38,527 bases of DNA from an uncultured Gemmiger sp. (lineage in GTDB: Bacteria > Bacillota > Clostridia > Oscillospirales > Ruminococcaceae), in the NCBI GenBank assembly GCA_944388245.1, contig CALXIA010000021.1, positions 1-38,527 of the forward strand. The letters run 5' to 3'. Below the pieces are notes generated by a model. It ran no database searches, was not told the origin of the DNA, and saw only the letters and a list, made by a program, of their open reading frames with translations. Shown here one piece after another: positions 9,609-30,373 of the stretch. The stretch's first letter is position 1. Each line of letters starts with the position of its first letter. The position numbers and the translations under genes were made by a program.

Positions 9609-10124
9609 TCAGCGGAACAGCCGGTTCAGCGCGGGGTTTGTCTCGATCAGTTTCACCAGAGCCACGCCCAGAACGCTGCAGCAGATGATCTCGCCAATGC
9701 CCACGGTCAGGGCGTTGAAGGCGGCGGCGGGCAGGGTGGCGGCGGCGTCCGGCACAAAGAAGGTCAGTTCCAGCGCGCCCACGATCACCGCGTTGACCAG
9801 CACCGGGGGCAGGCTGGCCGGGATGACCAGGCCGCGGATGCGCACGTTCCGCAGCAGCCAGGTGCCCACGCAGGCCACCAGGGTGGCGGCGGTGCCGAAG
9901 ACCACGTCCACAGGGGTGCTGCCCAGCAGGTTGGCCAGGAAGCAGCCCAGCACCGAGGAGACGATGTACTCCGGCCCGAACACCGGCAGCATCACCAGGG
10001 CCTCGGCAACGCGGAACTGCACCGGCCCGAAGGCGGCGTAGCCCAGCACCAGGCAGAGCACGGTGTAGACGGCCGCCAGCAGCGCGCAGCGGACAAGACG
10101 ACGGGTACGGTTGGTTTTTTGCAT
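9609..10124 (-). CDS. queT: QueT family transporter (queuosine precursor ECF S-component)
   Basis: This 171-residue membrane protein has about six hydrophobic helices and the family-typical segment FGPVQFRVAEALVMLPVF near residue 40. QueT proteins are the substrate-binding S-components that work with the shared ECF energy module (EcfAA'T, not in this window) to take up queuosine precursors for tRNA modification. The start is the ATG at 10124 (MQKTNRTRR); an in-frame start at 10196 would lie inside the structured leader. No strong ribosome site is seen, only a weak CCGGAG about 10 nt upstream, which could be an expression platform. Its own promoter and a 126-nt leader lie upstream, and the HAD gene downstream. 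Confidence 0.88.
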   Translation of the reverse strand: MQKTNRTRRLVRCALLAAVYTVLCLVLGYAAFGPVQFRVAEALVMLPVFGPEYIVSSVLGCFLANLLGSTPVDVVFGTAATLVACVGTWLLRNVRIRGLVIPASLPPVLVNAVIVGALELTFFVPDAAATLPAAAFNALTVGIGEIICCSVLGVALVKLIETNPALNRLFR

Positions 10125-10250
10125 AGCAATACACTCCGGCGGAAAGATTTTGCCCGCCGCGGCACCGCCAGTTCCGCGGGGGTGGTCCGCGCTCAACGGC
10201 GCGGCGGGCCTAAAATCCTAAGTTGCCCGGCACGGCCCGCAGGCCGCACG
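10125..10250 (-). promoter_or_regulatory. structured queT leader, candidate riboswitch
   Basis: From the predicted start site near 10250 the minus-strand leader runs about 126 nt to queT. It contains AACUUAGGAUUUUAGG, then a perfect 10-bp stem (10200-10209 with 10152-10161) enclosing a smaller CGCGG/CCGCG hairpin, then AAAAUCUUU and the weak ribosome site. preQ1 riboswitches of several classes control queT-type genes in Firmicutes, and class III is known from Ruminococcaceae. I could not match a class by eye, so the assignment is inference from gene, length and fold. Confidence 0.45.
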
Positions 10251-23755: not shown

Positions 23756-24292
23756 TTACAGCCCGAACCGGGTGTAGGGGTGCCAGCAGTCCAGGCAGAC
23801 CGGCTGGCCGTTCTCCAGCCGCAGCATCGACTCCATGGTCATCTCGCCGCAGACCGAACAGGGCCGGCTTTCCATGAGCCGGGCCTTTTCCGGCAGCGGG
23901 CAGGCGGGCTCCTTCACGTCAAACAATTCGGCGGGGGTGCGGGCCTGGAGCCAGGCGAAGCTCTCCTCCTTGCTCATGCCCGCCGGGCGCGGGCGCAGCA
24001 CCAGCCGCACCCCCTTGCCGTCCGACCGGCGGTAGAAGCCGAAGGCCTGCTTGCCCCGCAGCCGGAAGAGCAGGTTGCCCTTGCCGGCGCTGCAGCCCAG
24101 CACCACCTGGATGGCGTCCACCCCGCAGGCGTCGTTCTCGCTGATGCAGACCAGCTGTTCGTCCTCCGAAAAGCCGCTGTTCAGCAGTTCCCTTGCGTAG
24201 AGCGCTGCCTTGAACCCAATGGTCAGGCCGCCGCAGGCGTGGCCGTGAAAGGCCACGCATTTATCCCAAAGCTGTTGTTCCTGTTCGGTCAT
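23756..24292 (-). CDS. FmdE-like protein with C-terminal zinc ribbon
   Basis: This 178-residue protein carries the FmdE domain (formylmethanofuran dehydrogenase subunit E family). FHGHACGGLTIG provides His16, His18 and Cys20, ENDACGVDAIQVVLGC provides Cys56 and Cys67, and KGNLLFRLRGKQAFGFYRR follows. A separate zinc ribbon ends the protein with Cys145, Cys148, Cys166 and Cys169. In methanogens the family accompanies molybdenum/tungsten formylmethanofuran dehydrogenase; in bacteria its function is unsettled and it often sits beside ABC uptake genes. Here its ATG overlaps the TGA of the fused ATPase (ATGA), making it the last gene of the transport operon. A metal- or cofactor-handling role for the imported compound is inference. 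Confidence 0.88.
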   Translation of the reverse strand: MTEQEQQLWDKCVAFHGHACGGLTIGFKAALYARELLNSGFSEDEQLVCISENDACGVDAIQVVLGCSAGKGNLLFRLRGKQAFGFYRRSDGKGVRLVLRPRPAGMSKEESFAWLQARTPAELFDVKEPACPLPEKARLMESRPCSVCGEMTMESMLRLENGQPVCLDCWHPYTRFGL

Positions 24293-25920
24293 TGCGCATC
24301 CTCCAGTTCCTGTTCGATTTTGTCCGGATCCACCGGCTGCAGGCGTCCGTGTTTCAGCAGCAGCACCCGGTCCGCGATCTTGCGGGCCGCGTGGGGGTCG
24401 TGGGTCACCACCAGCAGCGCGCAGCCCTCCGCGTTCTGCATCCCTTTCAGCAGCCGCAGCAGGTTCGCCCGGCCGGAGGCGTCCAGCTGGGCGGTGGGCT
24501 CGTCCGCCACCAGCACCGCCGGGCGCAGCACCAGCGCCCGGGCCATCGCCACCCGCTGGGCCTGCCCGCCGCTCAACGCCCCGGTGGGCCGGGCCAGCAG
24601 CTGGGGCGTGGGGTCCAGCCCCACCTGCCGCAGCAGCTGCACCACCCGCTCGTGCTGCTGATCCGGGCTGGCCCACAGTTTGGCCAGCACCCCCGGCTCG
24701 GCCACCGCCCGCTCCACCGTGAAGCGGGGATTCAGGGCGGCGAAGCTGTCCTGCCACAGCAGCTGCACCCCGCCCGGGGCGCGGTGCAGCCGGGCGAAGT
24801 CGGCGGCCTCGCCGTTCACCAGCACCCGCCCGCTGTCCGGGGGCAGAAAGCCCGCCAGGATCGCCGCCAGGGTGCTCTTGCCGATCCCGCTGGGCCCCAC
24901 CAGGGCCACCGTTTCCCCGCAGTCCAGCCGCAGGTTGGCCCCGGTGAGCACCGGTTTGCCGTCAAATTGTTTGGCAATGTCCCGGGCGGTGAGGGCCGCC
25001 GCGATGCCGCCCCGCACGCAGGCCACCTGCCGGCCCGGGCCGATCTCGGCCAGTTCCGGCACGCCGGTGGCACACGCCGGCATGCACTGGGTGCACCGGC
25101 CCCGGAAGGGGCACTCCCCTTCCCGGGGCCCCGGGCCGGGGCGGATGCCCCACAGATCCCGCTGGGGGTACAGTTCCGGGAAGGACCGGATCAGCCCCCG
25201 GCTGTAGGGGTGCCGGGGGTCGGCCAGCAGCTCGGCGGTGGGGGCCAGCTCCATCACCCGCCCGCCGTAGAGCACGCAGCTGCGGGCGCAGAGGGCCCGG
25301 GCCACCGTCACGTCGTGGGTCACGAGCAAAAAGGCGGTGCCCGCCGCGGCCCGGCGGCGGATGAGTTCCAGCACCCGCCGGCGGGAGACCTCGTCCAGCG
25401 CGCCGGTGGGCTCGTCCAGCACCACGAAATCCGGGTCCAGCGCCAGGGCCAGGGCCAGCAGGGTCTTCTGCACCATGCCGCCGGAGGCCTGCCGGGGCAG
25501 CAGCCCCAGGTCGCGCACCTCCAGCCCCACCTCGCCGGCCAGCAGCGCCGCCCGGCCCGCCCGCTCGGCGCGGGGATACCGGCGGGCCAGCAGTTCTTCC
25601 AGATGCTGCCCCAGGGTCAGGCTGGGGTTCAGCCAGCCGTGGGCGTTCTGAAACCCGATCGAAAACCGGGCCATCCGCCAGTCGGCCAGTTCTTTCGGGG
25701 GCAGGGCGGTCAGGTCCTGGCCGTCCAGCCAGACCCGCCCGCCGGGGGCGGCGTCCTTGTCCAGCAGCCGCACCGCGGCCCGGGCCAGGGTGCTCTTGCC
25801 GCTGCCGCTCTCCCCCACCACGGCCAGGCACTCCCCCGCGGCCAGATCCAGGCTCACCGGGCCCAGACAAAAGCCGGGGTAGCGGGCGGTGAGCCCCTCC
25901 AAACGAACGCGCGGCGTCAT
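24289..25920 (-). CDS. fused dual-ATPase of a peptide/nickel-type ABC importer (DppD-DppF like)
   Basis: This 543-residue protein joins two ABC domains that are normally separate subunits. Domain 1: Walker A 36-43 (GESGSGKS), Gln91, degenerate signature ASGGM (145-149), Walker B 165-170. It ends with the oligopeptide-transporter C-terminal region containing cysteines 270, 276, 279, 283 and 301, as in members that bind an iron-sulfur cluster. Domain 2: Walker A 342-349 (GPSGIGKS), Gln390, canonical LSGGQ (449-453), Walker B 469-474. The first signature motif may make one ATP site less active. The ATG at 25920 overlaps the permease stop (ATGA) and the gene's own stop overlaps fmdE, so the operon is tightly coupled. 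It energises the two permeases upstream. Confidence 0.9.
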   Translation of the reverse strand: MTPRVRLEGLTARYPGFCLGPVSLDLAAGECLAVVGESGSGKSTLARAAVRLLDKDAAPGGRVWLDGQDLTALPPKELADWRMARFSIGFQNAHGWLNPSLTLGQHLEELLARRYPRAERAGRAALLAGEVGLEVRDLGLLPRQASGGMVQKTLLALALALDPDFVVLDEPTGALDEVSRRRVLELIRRRAAAGTAFLLVTHDVTVARALCARSCVLYGGRVMELAPTAELLADPRHPYSRGLIRSFPELYPQRDLWGIRPGPGPREGECPFRGRCTQCMPACATGVPELAEIGPGRQVACVRGGIAAALTARDIAKQFDGKPVLTGANLRLDCGETVALVGPSGIGKSTLAAILAGFLPPDSGRVLVNGEAADFARLHRAPGGVQLLWQDSFAALNPRFTVERAVAEPGVLAKLWASPDQQHERVVQLLRQVGLDPTPQLLARPTGALSGGQAQRVAMARALVLRPAVLVADEPTAQLDASGRANLLRLLKGMQNAEGCALLVVTHDPHAARKIADRVLLLKHGRLQPVDPDKIEQELEDAQ

Positions 25921-26747
25921 ACACTTCCCTCCAGCAGTCGCTGCTCCAGCCAGCGGGCCAGCAGCCGGGTGAACAGGATGGTCAGCATCAGCGCCGCCAC
26001 CGGCGCGGCCAGCCACCATTTCCAGTAATCGGTAAAATAGATGCCCGCAAAGCGGGAGGCCCGGTTGATCATGAGCCCCCAGCTTTTGGCGGTGGGGTCG
26101 GACAGGCCCAGGTAGGCCAGGGCGCTCTCCTGCAAAATCGCCTTGCCCACCACCGCCAGCGCCCCCACCAGCACCACCGGCAGCACGTCCGCCGCCAGGT
26201 GGTTTTTCAGGATATACCAGCTGTTTGCGCCCCAGCTTCTGGCCGCCTGCACATAGGTGCGGTGGGCGGCCGAGCGGGTCTTGGCGGCGGTTTGTTTGGC
26301 CACCGGCGCCCAGGAAAAGGCCGCGATCAGCCCGATCACCAGCCGCCGGTCCTGGCCCCAGAAGGCCCCCAGCACGATCAGCACCGGCAGCTGGGGCACC
26401 GCCAGGAACACCTGCACCGCCAGGTCCACCGCGGCCTGCACCCCGCCGCCCTTATAGCCGGCCAGCATCCCCAGCCCGCCGCCGATCAGGGCGGTGAGCG
26501 CCCCGCAGGCAAGCCCCAGGCCCATGCTGGAGAAAAATCCCCGGCTGAGCTGGGCGTAGATGTCGATGCCCAGATCGTCGGTGCCCAGCCAGTGGGCGGG
26601 GCCGGGGGCCTCCAGCGAATCGCCGCTGGGCTGGGTGGGGCTGCAGGGCCAGGCCAGCGCCCCCCAGGCGAAAAAGAGGGTCAAAATCAGCAGCCCGGCG
26701 CAGAGAAGCAGCAGCGGGCCCCAGCCCTTTCGGATCGCTTTACCCAT
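25917..26747 (-). CDS. peptide/nickel-type ABC permease (DppC/NikC family)
   Basis: This 276-residue inner-membrane subunit has an N-terminal helix (about 10-31), the extracytoplasmic HWLGTDDLGIDIYAQLSRG segment diagnostic of DppC/OppC proteins, and about five further helices. The EAA loop region is RTYVQAARSWGANSWYILKNHLAADVLP, where the ATPase couples. It forms a heterodimer with the DppB-like permease encoded upstream. Its ATG overlaps the upstream permease by 8 nt and its stop overlaps the ATPase start. Substrate choice in this family (peptides, nickel chelates, heme, opines) is set by the binding protein and cannot be read from the permease. Confidence 0.92.
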   Translation of the reverse strand: MGKAIRKGWGPLLLLCAGLLILTLFFAWGALAWPCSPTQPSGDSLEAPGPAHWLGTDDLGIDIYAQLSRGFFSSMGLGLACGALTALIGGGLGMLAGYKGGGVQAAVDLAVQVFLAVPQLPVLIVLGAFWGQDRRLVIGLIAAFSWAPVAKQTAAKTRSAAHRTYVQAARSWGANSWYILKNHLAADVLPVVLVGALAVVGKAILQESALAYLGLSDPTAKSWGLMINRASRFAGIYFTDYWKWWLAAPVAALMLTILFTRLLARWLEQRLLEGSV

Positions 26748-27708
26748 CCTGCCGCACCCCCTTGTCCAGCCCGGCGCAGAGCCGGTCGCTGGCCAGCATC
26801 CCCGCCAGCACCAGCACGGTGGAGAAGAGAAATACCCCCTGGATCAGCGGGTAGTCCCGGTAGCGCACCGCCTCCCGCAGCACGGTGCCCACCCCCGGGT
26901 AGGCAAAGACGTTCTCCACCAGCAGGGTGCTGCCCATCAGCCCGCCAATGCTCAAAAACAGCTTGGCCACGATGGGGGTGGCGGCGTTGCGCAGGATGTA
27001 CCGGCGGCGCACCAGCCCCTCCTTCAGCCCGCGGGCGCGGGCGGCCAGCAGGTAGGGCTGCCGGCGCACCGAGAGGAAGCTGGCCCGGGCGGTGAAGAAG
27101 TAGCCGGGCAGGCTCACCACGCACAGGCTCACCGCCGGCAGCAGCCCGTGCAGCGCCAGGTCCCCCAGCCGCTGGGCCAGGCCGGTGTACCGGGCGAAAG
27201 CGGTCTCCCCGCCGGAGAGGGGCAGCCAGTCCACCCGGGCGGCCACGAGAAAGAGCAGCGCCAGCCCCACCAGGTAGGGCGGCAGCTGGCAGATGGCGGA
27301 AAACGCCCCGTACACCGCCTTGTCCATCCGGGGGCGGCGCACGCAGACCAGCGCCAGCGCCACCGCCAGCGGCAGGCTCAGCGCGGTGGAGAAGGCCATG
27401 AGCCCCAGCGTCCAGGGCAGGCGGCCCAGGATCACGGCGCTCACCGGCTGCTTGTAGTGGATGCTCTGGCCCAGATCCCCTTGCAGGTTGGCCGCCAGGG
27501 TGCGGGCAAACTGGGTCAGCAGCGGCTGGTCCAGGCCGTAGTAGGCCCGCAGCTGGTCCAGCTGCTCAGCGTTGTAGGGCACCGTCATGTCCTCCCCGGA
27601 CACCGAGGAGGAGTATTGCAGCGGGTCGCCGGGCATCAGGCGGGGGATGAAGAAGTTGCACAGATAGATCACCGCGAAGGTGGCCAGCAGCAGGGCGGCA
27701 CGGCGCAC
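26740..27708 (-). CDS. peptide/nickel-type ABC permease (DppB/NikB family)
   Basis: This 322-residue permease has an N-terminal helix, the DppB hallmark RLMPGDPL, an extracytoplasmic AYYGLDQPLLTQFARTLAANL region followed by GDLGQSI, then five helices with the coupling segment YLLAARARGLKEGLVRRRYILRNAATP. The near-terminal LLVENVFAYPGVG is also typical. The GTG at 27708 follows GGAGGGGG and gives the expected N-terminus. It is 29 nt after the binding-protein gene and overlaps the next permease by 8 nt. Confidence 0.93.
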   Translation of the reverse strand: MRRAALLLATFAVIYLCNFFIPRLMPGDPLQYSSSVSGEDMTVPYNAEQLDQLRAYYGLDQPLLTQFARTLAANLQGDLGQSIHYKQPVSAVILGRLPWTLGLMAFSTALSLPLAVALALVCVRRPRMDKAVYGAFSAICQLPPYLVGLALLFLVAARVDWLPLSGGETAFARYTGLAQRLGDLALHGLLPAVSLCVVSLPGYFFTARASFLSVRRQPYLLAARARGLKEGLVRRRYILRNAATPIVAKLFLSIGGLMGSTLLVENVFAYPGVGTVLREAVRYRDYPLIQGVFLFSTVLVLAGMLASDRLCAGLDKGVRQDG

Positions 27709-27737: not shown

Positions 27738-29324
27738 TCAGCGCAGCATGTAGCTGAGCCGGTTCTGTTCCGCCTGCTGATAGGCGTAGGTCTTCATCCA
27801 GCCGTCGTAGTAGTCCTTGCGGTACATGCTGTAGCTGGACTGGTTGGCGATGACGATCAGCGGGATCTCCTGGCTGATCAGCACCTGCAACTGCTGGAAC
27901 ATGGCCTTGCGGGCCTCAAAGTCGGTCTCGGTGCGCTGGCCCTCGGCCAGGGCGGTGATGGCCGCGTTTTCGTAGCCGATGGGGCCCATGCTGTGGGGGT
28001 TGCCCCCCTGGTTTTTGGAGATGTCCGAGAAGATGGTGCGCAGGTAGGTGGGCGGGTTGTTGCCCCAGCCCCCGTTGCCCACCAGGGCGAACTGGTAGTC
28101 CCCCGCGTTGACCATGCTGTCCCGGGTGGCGGAGTCGTAACTCTCCACCGTCACCTCCACCCCGGCGGCCTCCAGGTCGATCTGGATCAGCTCCGCGATG
28201 GCCACGTCGCTGCCGCTGTCGGCGGCCAGCAGGGTCACCGACAGGCCCTTGTCCGCCAGCGCGGCCCGGGCGGCGTCCGGGTCATAGGGGTACTCCACGC
28301 AGTCGGGGGAATAGTACAGGCTGGACCGGGGCACATACCCGGCGCTGCCCACCGACCCGGCGCCCCGGAACACCTTGTCCACCACCGCCTGCCGGTCCAG
28401 CGCCGCGTAGACGGCCTGGCGCAGGGCGATGTCCAGAAATTCCGGGCACTCCTCAAAGTTGATCAGCAGCTTGTAGCCCATGTCGTTGGCCTTTTCCACA
28501 AAGCCCAAGCTCTCGTCGGCCCGGTAGGTATCCAGCAGGTCGGCGGGCACGCTGGTGATGTCGATCTCCCCGTTTTCAAAGGCCAGCAGCGCGTCGCTCA
28601 CCGGCACGAACTGGATCCGCCCCGCCGCCGGGGTGCCGGCGCAGAAGTCGTCCACCGCGGTGAACTCGTAGCTGCCGGTGGGGCCGTCGTACACGGTGCA
28701 GGCGTAGGCCCCGCTGCCGGTGAGCCAGCCCTCCCCGGTGTAGGTGTAGGGGTCGTCCACCGACTCCCAGATATGGCGGGGCAGGATCTCAAAGCTGCCC
28801 AGGCTGGTCAGGGTGTCCCCGTCCGGGGCCTTGACCGTCAGGGTGATGGTGCGCTCGTCCACCACCGTGTAGCTTTCCAGGATGCAGGCGTCGGTGCCCG
28901 CCGCCAGCGGATTGCTCACCGGCGGGTGGGCGTTGTAGTAGTCGATGGTGAAGGCCGCGTCGTCGGTGGTCAAGGGCTCGCCGTCCTGGAACGCGGCCCC
29001 CTGGCGCAGGGTGAAGGTGTAGTCCTTGCCGTCCACCGTCCAGCTTTCGGCCAGCCAGCCGATGTCGCCGGTCTCGTCCTTTTCCAGCAGGCTGGCGTAG
29101 ACCAGCTCCATCTTGGCGGTGCCGGGGCCCCGGCTCTGGCACTGGAAGGGGTTGGGGGCGCCCCAGTCAGTGCCGCCCTCCAGCCGCAGGGTCTCCACCC
29201 AGCCGTCGGGGTGGGCCGCGCCGGCGGCGGCCGATGTGTCGGGGGCGGCGGAACAGCCCGCCGCCAGGCTTGCGGTCATGCACAGCGCCAGCACGGCGGC
29301 GCCGATACGGGATGCGATCTTCAT
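27738..29324 (-). CDS. extracellular solute-binding lipoprotein, family 5 (peptide/nickel type)
   Basis: This 528-residue binding protein starts with a lipoprotein signal (KIASRIGAAVLALCMTASLAAGC, Cys24 lipidated). The mature part matches SBP_bac_5: WLAESWTVDGKDYTFTLRQGAAFQDGEPLTTDD is the diagnostic first-lobe segment, followed by an ILPRHIW-type loop and, in the second lobe, LRQAVYAALDRQAVVDKVF. It captures the substrate outside the membrane and delivers it to the permeases downstream. The ATG at 29324 has AGGAGG at 5 nt. It is the first gene of a five-gene operon (binding protein, two permeases, fused ATPase, FmdE-like) behind a leader of about 255 nt with an attenuator. Ligand class is not evident; the FmdE partner hints at a metal or cofactor complex. 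Confidence 0.92.
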   Translation of the reverse strand: MKIASRIGAAVLALCMTASLAAGCSAAPDTSAAAGAAHPDGWVETLRLEGGTDWGAPNPFQCQSRGPGTAKMELVYASLLEKDETGDIGWLAESWTVDGKDYTFTLRQGAAFQDGEPLTTDDAAFTIDYYNAHPPVSNPLAAGTDACILESYTVVDERTITLTVKAPDGDTLTSLGSFEILPRHIWESVDDPYTYTGEGWLTGSGAYACTVYDGPTGSYEFTAVDDFCAGTPAAGRIQFVPVSDALLAFENGEIDITSVPADLLDTYRADESLGFVEKANDMGYKLLINFEECPEFLDIALRQAVYAALDRQAVVDKVFRGAGSVGSAGYVPRSSLYYSPDCVEYPYDPDAARAALADKGLSVTLLAADSGSDVAIAELIQIDLEAAGVEVTVESYDSATRDSMVNAGDYQFALVGNGGWGNNPPTYLRTIFSDISKNQGGNPHSMGPIGYENAAITALAEGQRTETDFEARKAMFQQLQVLISQEIPLIVIANQSSYSMYRKDYYDGWMKTYAYQQAEQNRLSYMLR

Positions 29325-29582
29325 CTTTTCCTCCTGCAACAAAACGGGGCGGGAACGAAAAAAGCGGCGGCCAGACACACCGCCCCCGCCCGGCCAAAAC
29401 GCCGTGCAAAGGGGGATACAGTCTGGTCGCCGCGCTGCTGCCGTGGGGGCCGGGGCTTCCGCCCGGCATGCGGCGGGGCCTCCCTGGCCCCTGCGCGAAC
29501 CATCGTTTCCACGCCCGAACCGGGGCGCATCTGCCCGCCGCGAAGGGGCGGGGGCCGCGCCTTCCTGGCGGGCCGTTTGCTG
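29325..29582 (-). promoter_or_regulatory. long attenuated leader of the uptake operon, candidate riboswitch
   Basis: From the predicted start near 29582 the transcript runs about 255 nt before the binding-protein gene. The 5' two thirds fold into several GC-rich hairpins (for example GGGGCC/GGCCCC with loop AGGGA and GCCGGG/CCCGGC with loop CGGAAG). They are followed by a long intrinsic terminator at 29358-29433 and then the ribosome site. Folded domain, terminator, ribosome site is the order of a transcriptional riboswitch or attenuator. I did not recognise cobalamin, TPP, FMN, THF or Moco signatures. This stretch and the two flanking promoters account for the 389-nt gap between the operon and the divergent regulator. 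Confidence 0.55.
29358..29433 (-). terminator. intrinsic terminator (attenuator) inside the leader
   Basis: On the minus strand 29433-29421 and 29376-29364 form a 13-position stem with 12 Watson-Crick pairs and one A/C mismatch. It encloses 44 nt with an inner CCCCC/GGGGG pairing and is followed at once by TTTTTT (29363-29358). It lies between the operon promoter and its first gene. Confidence 0.8.
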
Positions 29583-29588
29583 GTTACA

Positions 29589-29618
29589 AGGATACCACAC
29601 ACCGGCGCGGCCGGTCAA
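29589..29618 (-). promoter_or_regulatory. promoter of the uptake operon
   Basis: On the minus strand TTGACC (29618-29613) and TATCCT (29594-29589) are separated by 18 bp, with TG one base before the -10 (extended -10). Confidence 0.7.
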
Positions 29619-29643
29619 GCGGCGGGCAGAGCAATCGTTTGTC

Positions 29644-29673
29644 TTGCGTCGGACCGCCCTGGTGGGGTATAAT
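29644..29673 (+). promoter_or_regulatory. promoter of the Crp/Fnr-family regulator gene
   Basis: TTGCGT (29644-29649) and a perfect TATAAT (29668-29673) are separated by 18 bp. It is back to back with the uptake-operon promoter, 25 bp apart, so one regulator could act on both. Confidence 0.8.
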
Positions 29674-29713
29674 CAAGGAAAAGCCCGACCGCCGCGCAAA
29701 GGAGGCCCCTGTC

Positions 29714-30373
29714 ATGTACAGCGAACAACTCAGCCGTCTGCCCTTCTGGGCCCATCTCACCCCCGCCCAGCAGGCCGCCACGGCGGACCAGTGCCGAAGG
29801 GTGGAGTACGCCCCCCAGCAGGAGGTGCACGGCCCCGCCGGGGAGTGCCTGGGGGTGCTGCTGATCGAGAGCGGGGCGCTGCGGATCTACCTGAGCAGCC
29901 CGGAGGGCCGCCAGGCCACCATCGACCGGCTGCACGCGGGGCAGATCTGCGTGATGACCGCCGCCTGCATGATGCGGGGGGTGAGTTTCGACGTGCAGGT
30001 GGAGGCGGAGAGCGCGGTGACCGCGCTGCTGCTGCCGGCCCGGGTGTTCGCGGCCCTGATGAAGGAAAACGTCTATGTGGAGGCGTTCCTCTACCGGGCG
30101 GCCACCGAGCGGTTCGCCGCGGTGCTCACCGGGATGGAGCAGATGCTGTTCCTGACGCTGGAGCAGCGGGTGGTGAGTTTTCTGTTGGACGAGGCGGTCC
30201 GGCAGGGGGGCGACGTGGTGCGGCTGACCCAGGAACAGCTGGCCCAGGCCATCGGCAGCGCCCGGGAGGCGGTGAGCCGGGCGCTGAAGAAGCTAGAGCG
30301 GCAGGGCCTGGTGGAGGTGGAGCGGGGCGCGGTGCGGCTGTGCGACCGGCCGGCGCTCTACCGGCTGCTGTGA
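29714..30373 (+). CDS. Crp/Fnr family transcriptional regulator
   Basis: This 219-residue protein has an N-terminal cyclic-nucleotide-binding-fold domain (about 10-130, with GECLGVLLIESGALRIYLSS and ATIDRLHAGQICVM), a dimer helix, and a C-terminal winged helix with the HTH TQEQLAQAIGSAREAVSRALKKLE. The cAMP phosphate-binding motif is not conserved, and no Fnr-type cysteine cluster is evident at the N-terminus, so the signal is unknown. The ATG at 29714 follows AAAGGAGG. It is divergent from the binding-protein operon with promoters 25 bp apart, so regulation of that operon and of itself is likely. The Nudix gene follows after 10 nt. Confidence 0.9.
   Translation: MYSEQLSRLPFWAHLTPAQQAATADQCRRVEYAPQQEVHGPAGECLGVLLIESGALRIYLSSPEGRQATIDRLHAGQICVMTAACMMRGVSFDVQVEAESAVTALLLPARVFAALMKENVYVEAFLYRAATERFAAVLTGMEQMLFLTLEQRVVSFLLDEAVRQGGDVVRLTQEQLAQAIGSAREAVSRALKKLERQGLVEVERGAVRLCDRPALYRLL

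Follow-up and report, generated by a model that had tools for sequence, protein, structure and literature searches.

An apparently undescribed transcription attenuator at the head of an SBP_bac_5/FmdE-type uptake operon in Gemmiger and at orthologous operons

Transcriptional riboswitches (e.g., the NiCo, cobalamin and Moco classes of Rfam) combine a folded domain and a choice between antiterminator and terminator with a downstream transporter gene. In the targets of ANTAR proteins (the eut, nasF and amiE leaders; EutV, NasR and AmiR), small hairpins with like loops stand in tandem, and the last of them and an intrinsic terminator before the regulated gene exclude each other. Few antitermination systems are known in which a protein reads tandem hairpins. 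The leader described here shares the general plan of riboswitches; however, it stays below the gathering score of all 4227 Rfam families and is very narrow in distribution. The leaders of orthologous operons in Flavonifractor share the tandem arrangement of the ANTAR targets, but most of the operon-leader loops comprise 4-5 nt, end in GAA and are closed by Y-G, rather than being hexaloops with A1 and G4. As for the genes, nickel, cobalt and peptide importers of the NikABCDE/Opp type are also encoded by operons for an SBP_bac_5 protein, two permeases and ATPase domains, whereas the operon studied here has both ATPase domains in one protein and possesses an additional gene for an FmdE-domain protein.

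The operon is located on the minus strand of the analysed stretch of DNA (the window; 38,527 nucleotides of contig CALXIA010000021.1 from an uncultured Gemmiger sp.). According to Pfam, it encodes a solute-binding lipoprotein (SBP_bac_5, 27738..29324; SBP in the following), two permeases (BPD_transp_1, 26740..27708 and 25917..26747), an ATPase with two ABC_tran stretches in one protein (24289..25923, putative start) and a protein with an FmdE domain and a C4 zinc finger (23756..24301). The best NCBIfam matches of the transporter are the NikA, Dpp and Opp models, with the SBP, the permeases and the ATPase all below the curated cut-offs; the equivalog cut-offs of NikABCDE are not reached (88.4 bits vs 393 for nickel_nikA, 151.2 vs 447 for nickel_nikB, 107.7 vs 358.45 for nickel_nikC). 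In PMC6615313, one of the sigma54 regulons listed is an operon with fmdE. In the window, a promoter scan revealed a sigma70-type promoter, TTGACC-18-TATCCT, with an extended -10 element (TG ahead of -10; 29589..29618, minus strand). It is the sole sigma70-like site in 28800-30200 (50 shuffles give 0.0, sd 0.1), in agreement with the good promoter that the initial annotation had reported. The start site deduced from this promoter gives an operon leader of ~258 nt (29325..29582). The leader contains an intrinsic terminator, whose 5' arm GCGGCGACCAGAC (29421..29433) pairs at 12 of 13 positions with the 3' arm GTCTGGCCGCCGC (29364..29376); the T run TTTTTT (29358..29363) follows immediately, and 22 nt past it lies the ribosome site AGGAGG (29330..29335) of the SBP gene, which starts at 29324. 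The stem, T run and ribosome site noted initially are thus borne out by the sequence.

The gene upstream of the promoter is divergent and encodes a Crp/Fnr-family regulator (Pfam; 29714..30373, plus strand); a Nudix gene likewise runs opposite to the operon. Between the divergent promoters there is an inverted repeat, GCAAGACAAACGATTGC (29631..29647), a possible Crp/Fnr site that is present in the window as well as in three other Gemmiger loci (L033, L034 and L035), and at which we infer that a Crp protein would bind. Of the interval given in the initial annotation (29325..29713), the lower part is leader; the part above about 29600 lies between the genes, carries the promoter of the divergent Crp/Fnr gene and does not belong to the leader.

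Leaders that can be aligned with that of the window (window-type leaders, n=5 including the window itself) precede the operon in L034, L035 and L033 (Gemmiger) and in L055, which belongs to another genus and whose SBP is 72% identical. In the window, the first hairpin of the leader is P1, GGCC.CGCC(AGGAA)GGCG.c.GGCC, with one bulged C (29553..29575, minus strand as all following elements; the pairing was drawn by eye and is absent from the fold of the whole leader), followed by the variable hairpin P2 (29534..29552), which is mostly gone in L033 and differs in L055. Next come the 5' strand of PA (TGGTTCGCGC, 29493..29502), a predicted antiterminator strand, the hairpin P3, GGGGCC(AGGGA)GGCCCC (29475..29491), the hairpin P4 with a bulged C and a GGAA loop (29440..29474; the loop is AGCA in L055), and the 3' strand of PA, GCGCG.gc.GACCA (29424..29435), which overlaps the 5' arm of the terminator. 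The stacked GC-rich hairpins of the initial annotation are present; their energy is no better than that of shuffles, as the fold of the whole leader is ordinary (z -0.79; 44 of 200 shuffles are equally good). At such a GC content, the presence of hairpins by itself says little. When the leader was shuffled with its dinucleotides kept, a T-run hairpin as good as the terminator arose in 14 of 500 cases; a simple terminator scan reports, for this T run, a hairpin of only 6 bp (1 found vs 0.5 expected). With an ordinary fold energy and a terminator that arises at this rate in shuffles, it is the comparison of relatives, rather than folding, that carries the argument.

This comparison reveals a mosaic of conservation. 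All five window-type leaders have a terminator and T run downstream of the promoter and ahead of the gene, and the -10 element with the next bases is identical at 19 of 20 positions between the window and L034 or L035. Invariant columns amount to 19/21 in the P3 block, 13/23 in P1 and 12/19 in the 3' terminator arm with the T run, in contrast to 9/59 in the variable hairpin region and 5/44 in the terminator loop; the coding DNA is 89-93% identical to the window in the other Gemmiger copies and 75% in L055. The initial annotation had named missing conservation of the folded part in relatives as evidence against its reading, and the P3 block, so well preserved with the gene itself 75% identical to that of the farthest of the five, speaks to the contrary. 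In L055, P1 has the form GCCGGTC(AGGAA)GACCGGC, and CAGGAAG of P1 is invariant in 5/5 leaders. The pattern GGSCCAGGNAGGSCC occurs six times in the four Gemmiger genomes and G159 (five of these occurrences are at P3). We considered CsrA because P1 holds AGGA; the P3 loop of L034 and L055 (AGGCA) is without GGA, counter to this idea. The frame divergent from the operon in L055 is not Crp and resembles, by reading, an activase-type ATPase. As the neighbour differs there, the leader appears to travel with the operon.

In predicted folds of the nascent RNA that still lacks the 3' arm of the terminator, the 5' arm finds an upstream partner, and the helix so formed closes a three-way junction round P3 and P4. 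This PA helix is part of the minimum-energy fold of the domain in four of the five leaders (window, L035, L033 and L055; not L034). When the 5' strand of PA was shuffled in the transcript reaching from the start to the arm, the arm was paired at least as well in 13 of 200 shuffles for the window, 36 for L034, 11 for L035, 8 for L033 and 6 for L055. The corresponding numbers are 21, 127, 7, 6 and 12 for the domain alone, and 5, 32, 5, 52 and 6 with the terminator loop included, in which case the PA pairing of L033 is lost (observed 0.0). As the register of PA shifts between the window and L035, pairs were counted for P3, P4 and the terminator, where 97% of the cells in the five sequences are paired. 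Covariation in these leaders does not exceed that of shuffles: with only five sequences, 104 of 500 shuffles reach the score. PA is a plausible antiterminator of the window-type leaders, and the folds of these five sequences, which are related to one another, lend it moderate support. A second AAACGATTGC lies within the PA strand of the L033 and L035 leaders, so that conservation of PA could there partly reflect a DNA site.

The SBP gene is present in all four analysed genomes of the genus and sparse elsewhere (at E <= 1e-100 in 9/396 genomes of the family, 4/394 of the order and 5/350 of a second family; the sets overlap). A covariance model of the window-type leader (R1) matched 28 of 377 family genomes at E<=1, of which five are the known leaders and the rest are weaker; note that Infernal was run with stricter filters and eight first-look candidates were scored per genome, so divergent copies could escape this search. 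The next best matches, L105 (E 3.7e-5) and L106 (E 6.8e-4), were rejected, being located inside Crp-like and branched-chain-permease-like coding frames, respectively; among the weaker ones, the alignments of L107 and L128 were inspected. In L105 (1022-3152, genome G033), the Crp-like frame is followed, by reading, by a CsoR-type-repressor-like frame and a histidine-rich P-type ATPase. No relatives were found in viral contigs, and the genera of G049 and G1051 returned, as further orthologs, only duplicates of known loci. The window-type sequence thus appears very narrow in distribution, and is part of a wider attenuator pattern at these operons (see below).

The three-way junction of PA, P3 and P4 could itself be the aptamer of a true riboswitch, with a metal ion or small molecule as a ligand that blocks the terminator (an ON switch). 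This would account for the strong conservation of the P3 stem and loop and for the bulged C kept in P4, the helix closing the junction is the predicted antiterminator, and no protein would be needed. As the initial annotation supposed, no familiar class is recognizable: among the 4227 Rfam families, none matches the leader at gathering score, and matches up to E 10 are five eukaryotic, viral or unrelated families far below it; a new class would fit this result. However, only the five known leaders stand out in the 377 family genomes, the leaders of other orthologs share neither the sequence nor the junction, one would not usually expect an importer to be switched on by the metal it takes up, and covariation does not exceed that of shuffles. 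We therefore regard a riboswitch as possible and on the doubtful side; an RNA-binding factor is no less likely, as the GAA-type loops described below point at least equally to a trans-acting factor. The initial claim that the RNA itself senses the compound, and with it the label "riboswitch", goes beyond the evidence, whereas the attenuator is real and matches no Rfam class. If the leader were a riboswitch after all, its ligand would point to the substrate of the importer. In the whole window, Rfam yields only a PreQ1-III riboswitch elsewhere (10134-10228, minus strand; 81.7 bits, gathering score 63). It lies where a frame for a small membrane protein starts (9609-10196); this frame presumably resembles QueT. 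The 22 ortholog loci gave a single match at gathering score: L038 has a lysine riboswitch, at a large distance from its SBP gene.

The attenuator plan is kept in place across orthologous operons. Using an SBP identity of 59% or more as the ortholog criterion, we obtained 20 distinct loci, 19 of them assessable (L044 has 22 nt upstream and was not; L059, with 42% identity, and relatives with 23-32% were kept outside the count). Duplicate loci, recognised by contigs of equal length or by upstream sequences that are identical, had been dropped before counting (L004=L034, L005=L035, L006=L033, L007=L046, L057=L042, L058=L043, L060=L039, L061=L036, L130=L037, L131=L040). An attenuator is present at the operon head in 14/19 loci, i.e., five of the window type, six of a Flavonifractor type and three before fmdE (the fmdE-first operons L042, L043 and L056, with a like plan directly before this gene). 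L038, L041, L045, L050 and L063 are without one. Among these, L041 has an extended inverted repeat near -150/-70, shortly followed by a T run, and L050 an A/T-rich hairpin well upstream; both were scored attenuator-free, the repeat of L041 being read as operator elements.

The six Flavonifractor-type leaders (L036, L062, L037, L039, L040 and L046, from Flavonifractor/Pseudoflavonifractor groups) are unrelated in sequence to the window type. In these leaders, a -10 element ~120-200 nt before the gene is followed by small hairpins and then by an overlapping antiterminator and terminator: the 3' arm of a 7-bp hairpin doubles as the 5' arm of the 18-bp terminator, and the T run (interrupted in L037) lies 10-70 nt before the start. 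The evidence is stronger in these leaders than in the window type. In the antiterminator, 42/42 cells are paired and one pair is doubly changed; 31 of 500 shuffles attain the covariation score of this helix. In the terminator, 97.2% of the cells are paired and the covariation score is reached by 0/500 shuffles; its four doubly changed pairs are a number that 72/500 shuffles reach. Furthermore, columns 2, 18 and 43 change together from A/U/A to G/C/G, which preserves both helices; such a joint change of a shared column with both of its alternative partners is as competing helices predict. Mutually exclusive antiterminator and terminator with compensatory changes are thus found in the Flavonifractor type, and the two structures exclude each other by prediction in 4/5 leaders of the window type. 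It is position and plan that suggest homology of the two types, whose sequences are unrelated, and we infer that they belong to one system. In two of the leaders (L040 4541-4616 and L046 5896-5938), an in-frame upstream start with a ribosome-site-like AGGAGG lies inside the terminator hairpin, which possibly adds translation control there.

These competing helices also bear on the question of whether the terminator is regulated at all. It might be a partly leaky element setting a low basal level, with the control exerted at the promoter by the Crp/Fnr regulator of the divergent gene; the inverted repeat kept in the window and in the three other Gemmiger loci, as well as the unremarkable fold energy of the whole leader, would agree with that. 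Yet the orthologs keep both helices through compensatory changes, the conservation of P1 and P3 would be needless, L055 keeps its leader despite a different neighbour gene, and with the upstream gene being divergent there is no transcript from which the operon would have to be shielded. We thus consider an unregulated terminator unlikely. Still less can be said for leader-peptide attenuation, in which the position of a ribosome on a short frame picks the hairpin. By eye, a 13-codon frame, ATGAAY...TCTTGA, can be read across the antiterminator and terminator of L037, L039, L040 and L046, but numerous positions differ in their codons, and conservation of the hairpins would by itself preserve the frame; no ribosome site precedes its start in L039, L040 and L046, the site-like AGGA in L037 serves an ATG in another frame, and the ATG of the window and L034 (ACGATGG) is ATT in L033 and L035. 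This explanation appears the most improbable of all.

A recurrent feature of the Flavonifractor-type leaders are hairpins with loops of the form Y(N1-2 GAA)G. There are 14 of them in the six leaders, two or three each in five and one in L037 (where the loop of the 5' hairpin is AAATAA), compared with 55 of 12,307 hairpins in a 400-kb background from three of these genomes, where three never occur within 130 nt; the motif was chosen after viewing the data. In a smaller count of the form with a four-base loop, 13 of 1,114 were found, the loci counted including the leaders themselves. In the window type, contiguous stems with a GAA loop number 0 in the four Gemmiger leaders and 1 in L055; the loops of P1 (AGGAA) and P4 (GGAA, AGCA in L055) fit the motif only in interrupted stems, and that of P3 is AGGNA. 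The fmdE-first leaders, which were met after the motif had been noticed, possess GCCGCTGAAGCGGC and, at the terminator, a TGAA loop; the TGAA hairpin is part of the nascent minimum-energy fold only in L056 among the three. We scanned 1.16 Mb with a descriptor that requires two GAA-loop hairpins, the downstream one overlapping a terminator. It picked up five of the six Flavonifractor-type orthologs and the duplicates of these, plus L016, an SBP_bac_5 gene with 29% identity; within the same 1.16 Mb it did not return L037, L042, L043, L056, L013 or any window-type leader. In L013, another distant SBP_bac_5 gene (the SBP identities of L013 and L016 are 28-29%), a GAA-loop hairpin overlapping the terminator was found by reading. 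The repeated GAA-type loops are likely to be binding sites for a factor, as judged from their recurrence.

One candidate for such a factor would be the ANTAR protein of the genome, binding tandem hexaloop hairpins of which the second overlaps the terminator. The plan is the same, with tandem hairpins of like loops and the last one competing with the terminator: the overlap of second hairpin and terminator exists in the six Flavonifractor-type leaders and, through PA, by prediction in the window type. An ANTAR gene was found in 17/17 genomes searched, and in L013 the loop of the antiterminator can be read as AGAGAA, with A1 and G4. However, the gene does not discriminate, as the operon-less genomes G229, G020 and G282 carry one too, and the loops deviate from the rule. 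According to PMC3369931, ANTAR targets have a hexaloop with A1 and G4, within the 13-mer AGCAANGRRGCUY, and PMC8934654 suggests that EutV excludes tetraloops (see also PMC8164766). Two A1/G4 hexaloops on stems of 4 or more were found in 0/11 operon leaders and a single one in 1/11 (L033, stem of 4). In contrast, among the glnA leaders beside ANTAR genes (n=7), two of Gemmiger served as a positive control: these (L136 and L138, where the ANTAR gene lies just downstream of a, by reading, glutamine-synthetase-like frame) carry CAGC(AAAGGC)GCTG at the terminator, and one of Flavonifractor plautii (L135) carries the close form GGAC(AAAGGC)GTTC. In the remaining four, L134 has three A1/G4 hexaloops and L137 one, lacking the 13-mer, and L132 and L133 have none. 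As the loop rule fails in the operon leaders and holds in the Gemmiger glnA leaders, we rejected the ANTAR reading, which we consider very unlikely.

The best reading of the locus is thus a real, apparently undescribed transcription attenuator; titles and abstract openings of the literature searched contain no description of the leader element. We propose that it acts in cis and that the choice between PA and terminator is set by a trans-acting factor sensing the state of the imported metal, and give this reading a probability of about 0.45. In the nascent leader, PA would close the three-way junction round P3 and P4 by using the bases of the terminator start as its 3' strand. If PA were held in the cell, polymerase would read into the operon; if PA opened, the 12-bp terminator would form and the operon would be off. 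In the orthologs of Flavonifractor and Pseudoflavonifractor, a short local hairpin would play the role of PA. The choice would most likely be made by an RNA-binding factor that holds the hairpins with Y-N(1-2)-GAA-G loops (two or three in 5/6 Flavonifractor-type leaders), and its signal would probably be the status of the metal, or metal-bound compound, that is imported by the operon. No protein emerged as a candidate for this factor. A more far-reaching formulation is offered tentatively, as one that may well not hold: an attenuator RNA family of gut Oscillospirales, with two to three Y-N(1-2)-GAA-G hairpins, the last competing with the terminator, and a putative RNA-binding antiterminator, in front of metal or metallophore uptake genes of the SBP_bac_5/FmdE type; Gemmiger would be a divergent member, whose antiterminator has grown into a three-way junction. 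If true, this would be a second type of tandem-hairpin antitermination, with a different loop rule and located at a metal-type transporter of common gut anaerobes, and would provide a handle on both the RNA-binding regulator and the substrate of FmdE-linked importers.

The initial annotation had suggested a metal or cofactor as ligand. This part of it has gained indirect indications, and every link is indirect: the elements upstream of attenuator-free orthologs together with a PF02583 gene, cobalamin riboswitches at distant relatives and the nickel-type models matched by the transporter suggest a transition metal, Ni or Co in the first place, as the signal. Indeed, the attenuator-free loci L038, L041, L045 and L063 possess an ATCCCC..GGGG.GGCTTG-like element upstream of the SBP gene, a pattern with two matches in 400 kb of background, and L050 has a G-tract upstream. 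We take these G/C-tract inverted elements to resemble the metal-responsive operators of CsoR/RcnR, and beside the element of L045 lies a gene for a metal-sensitive repressor (family PF02583); unlike such DNA operators, the leader of the window is RNA. The comparison suggests that one operon is under RNA control in some lineages, and that in others a DNA-binding repressor responding to metal perhaps takes over this role; the signal thereby becomes accessible to testing. The cobalamin riboswitches are located upstream of the distant SBP_bac_5 relatives in L009 (3188-3419, minus strand) and L010 (2797-2981, minus strand).
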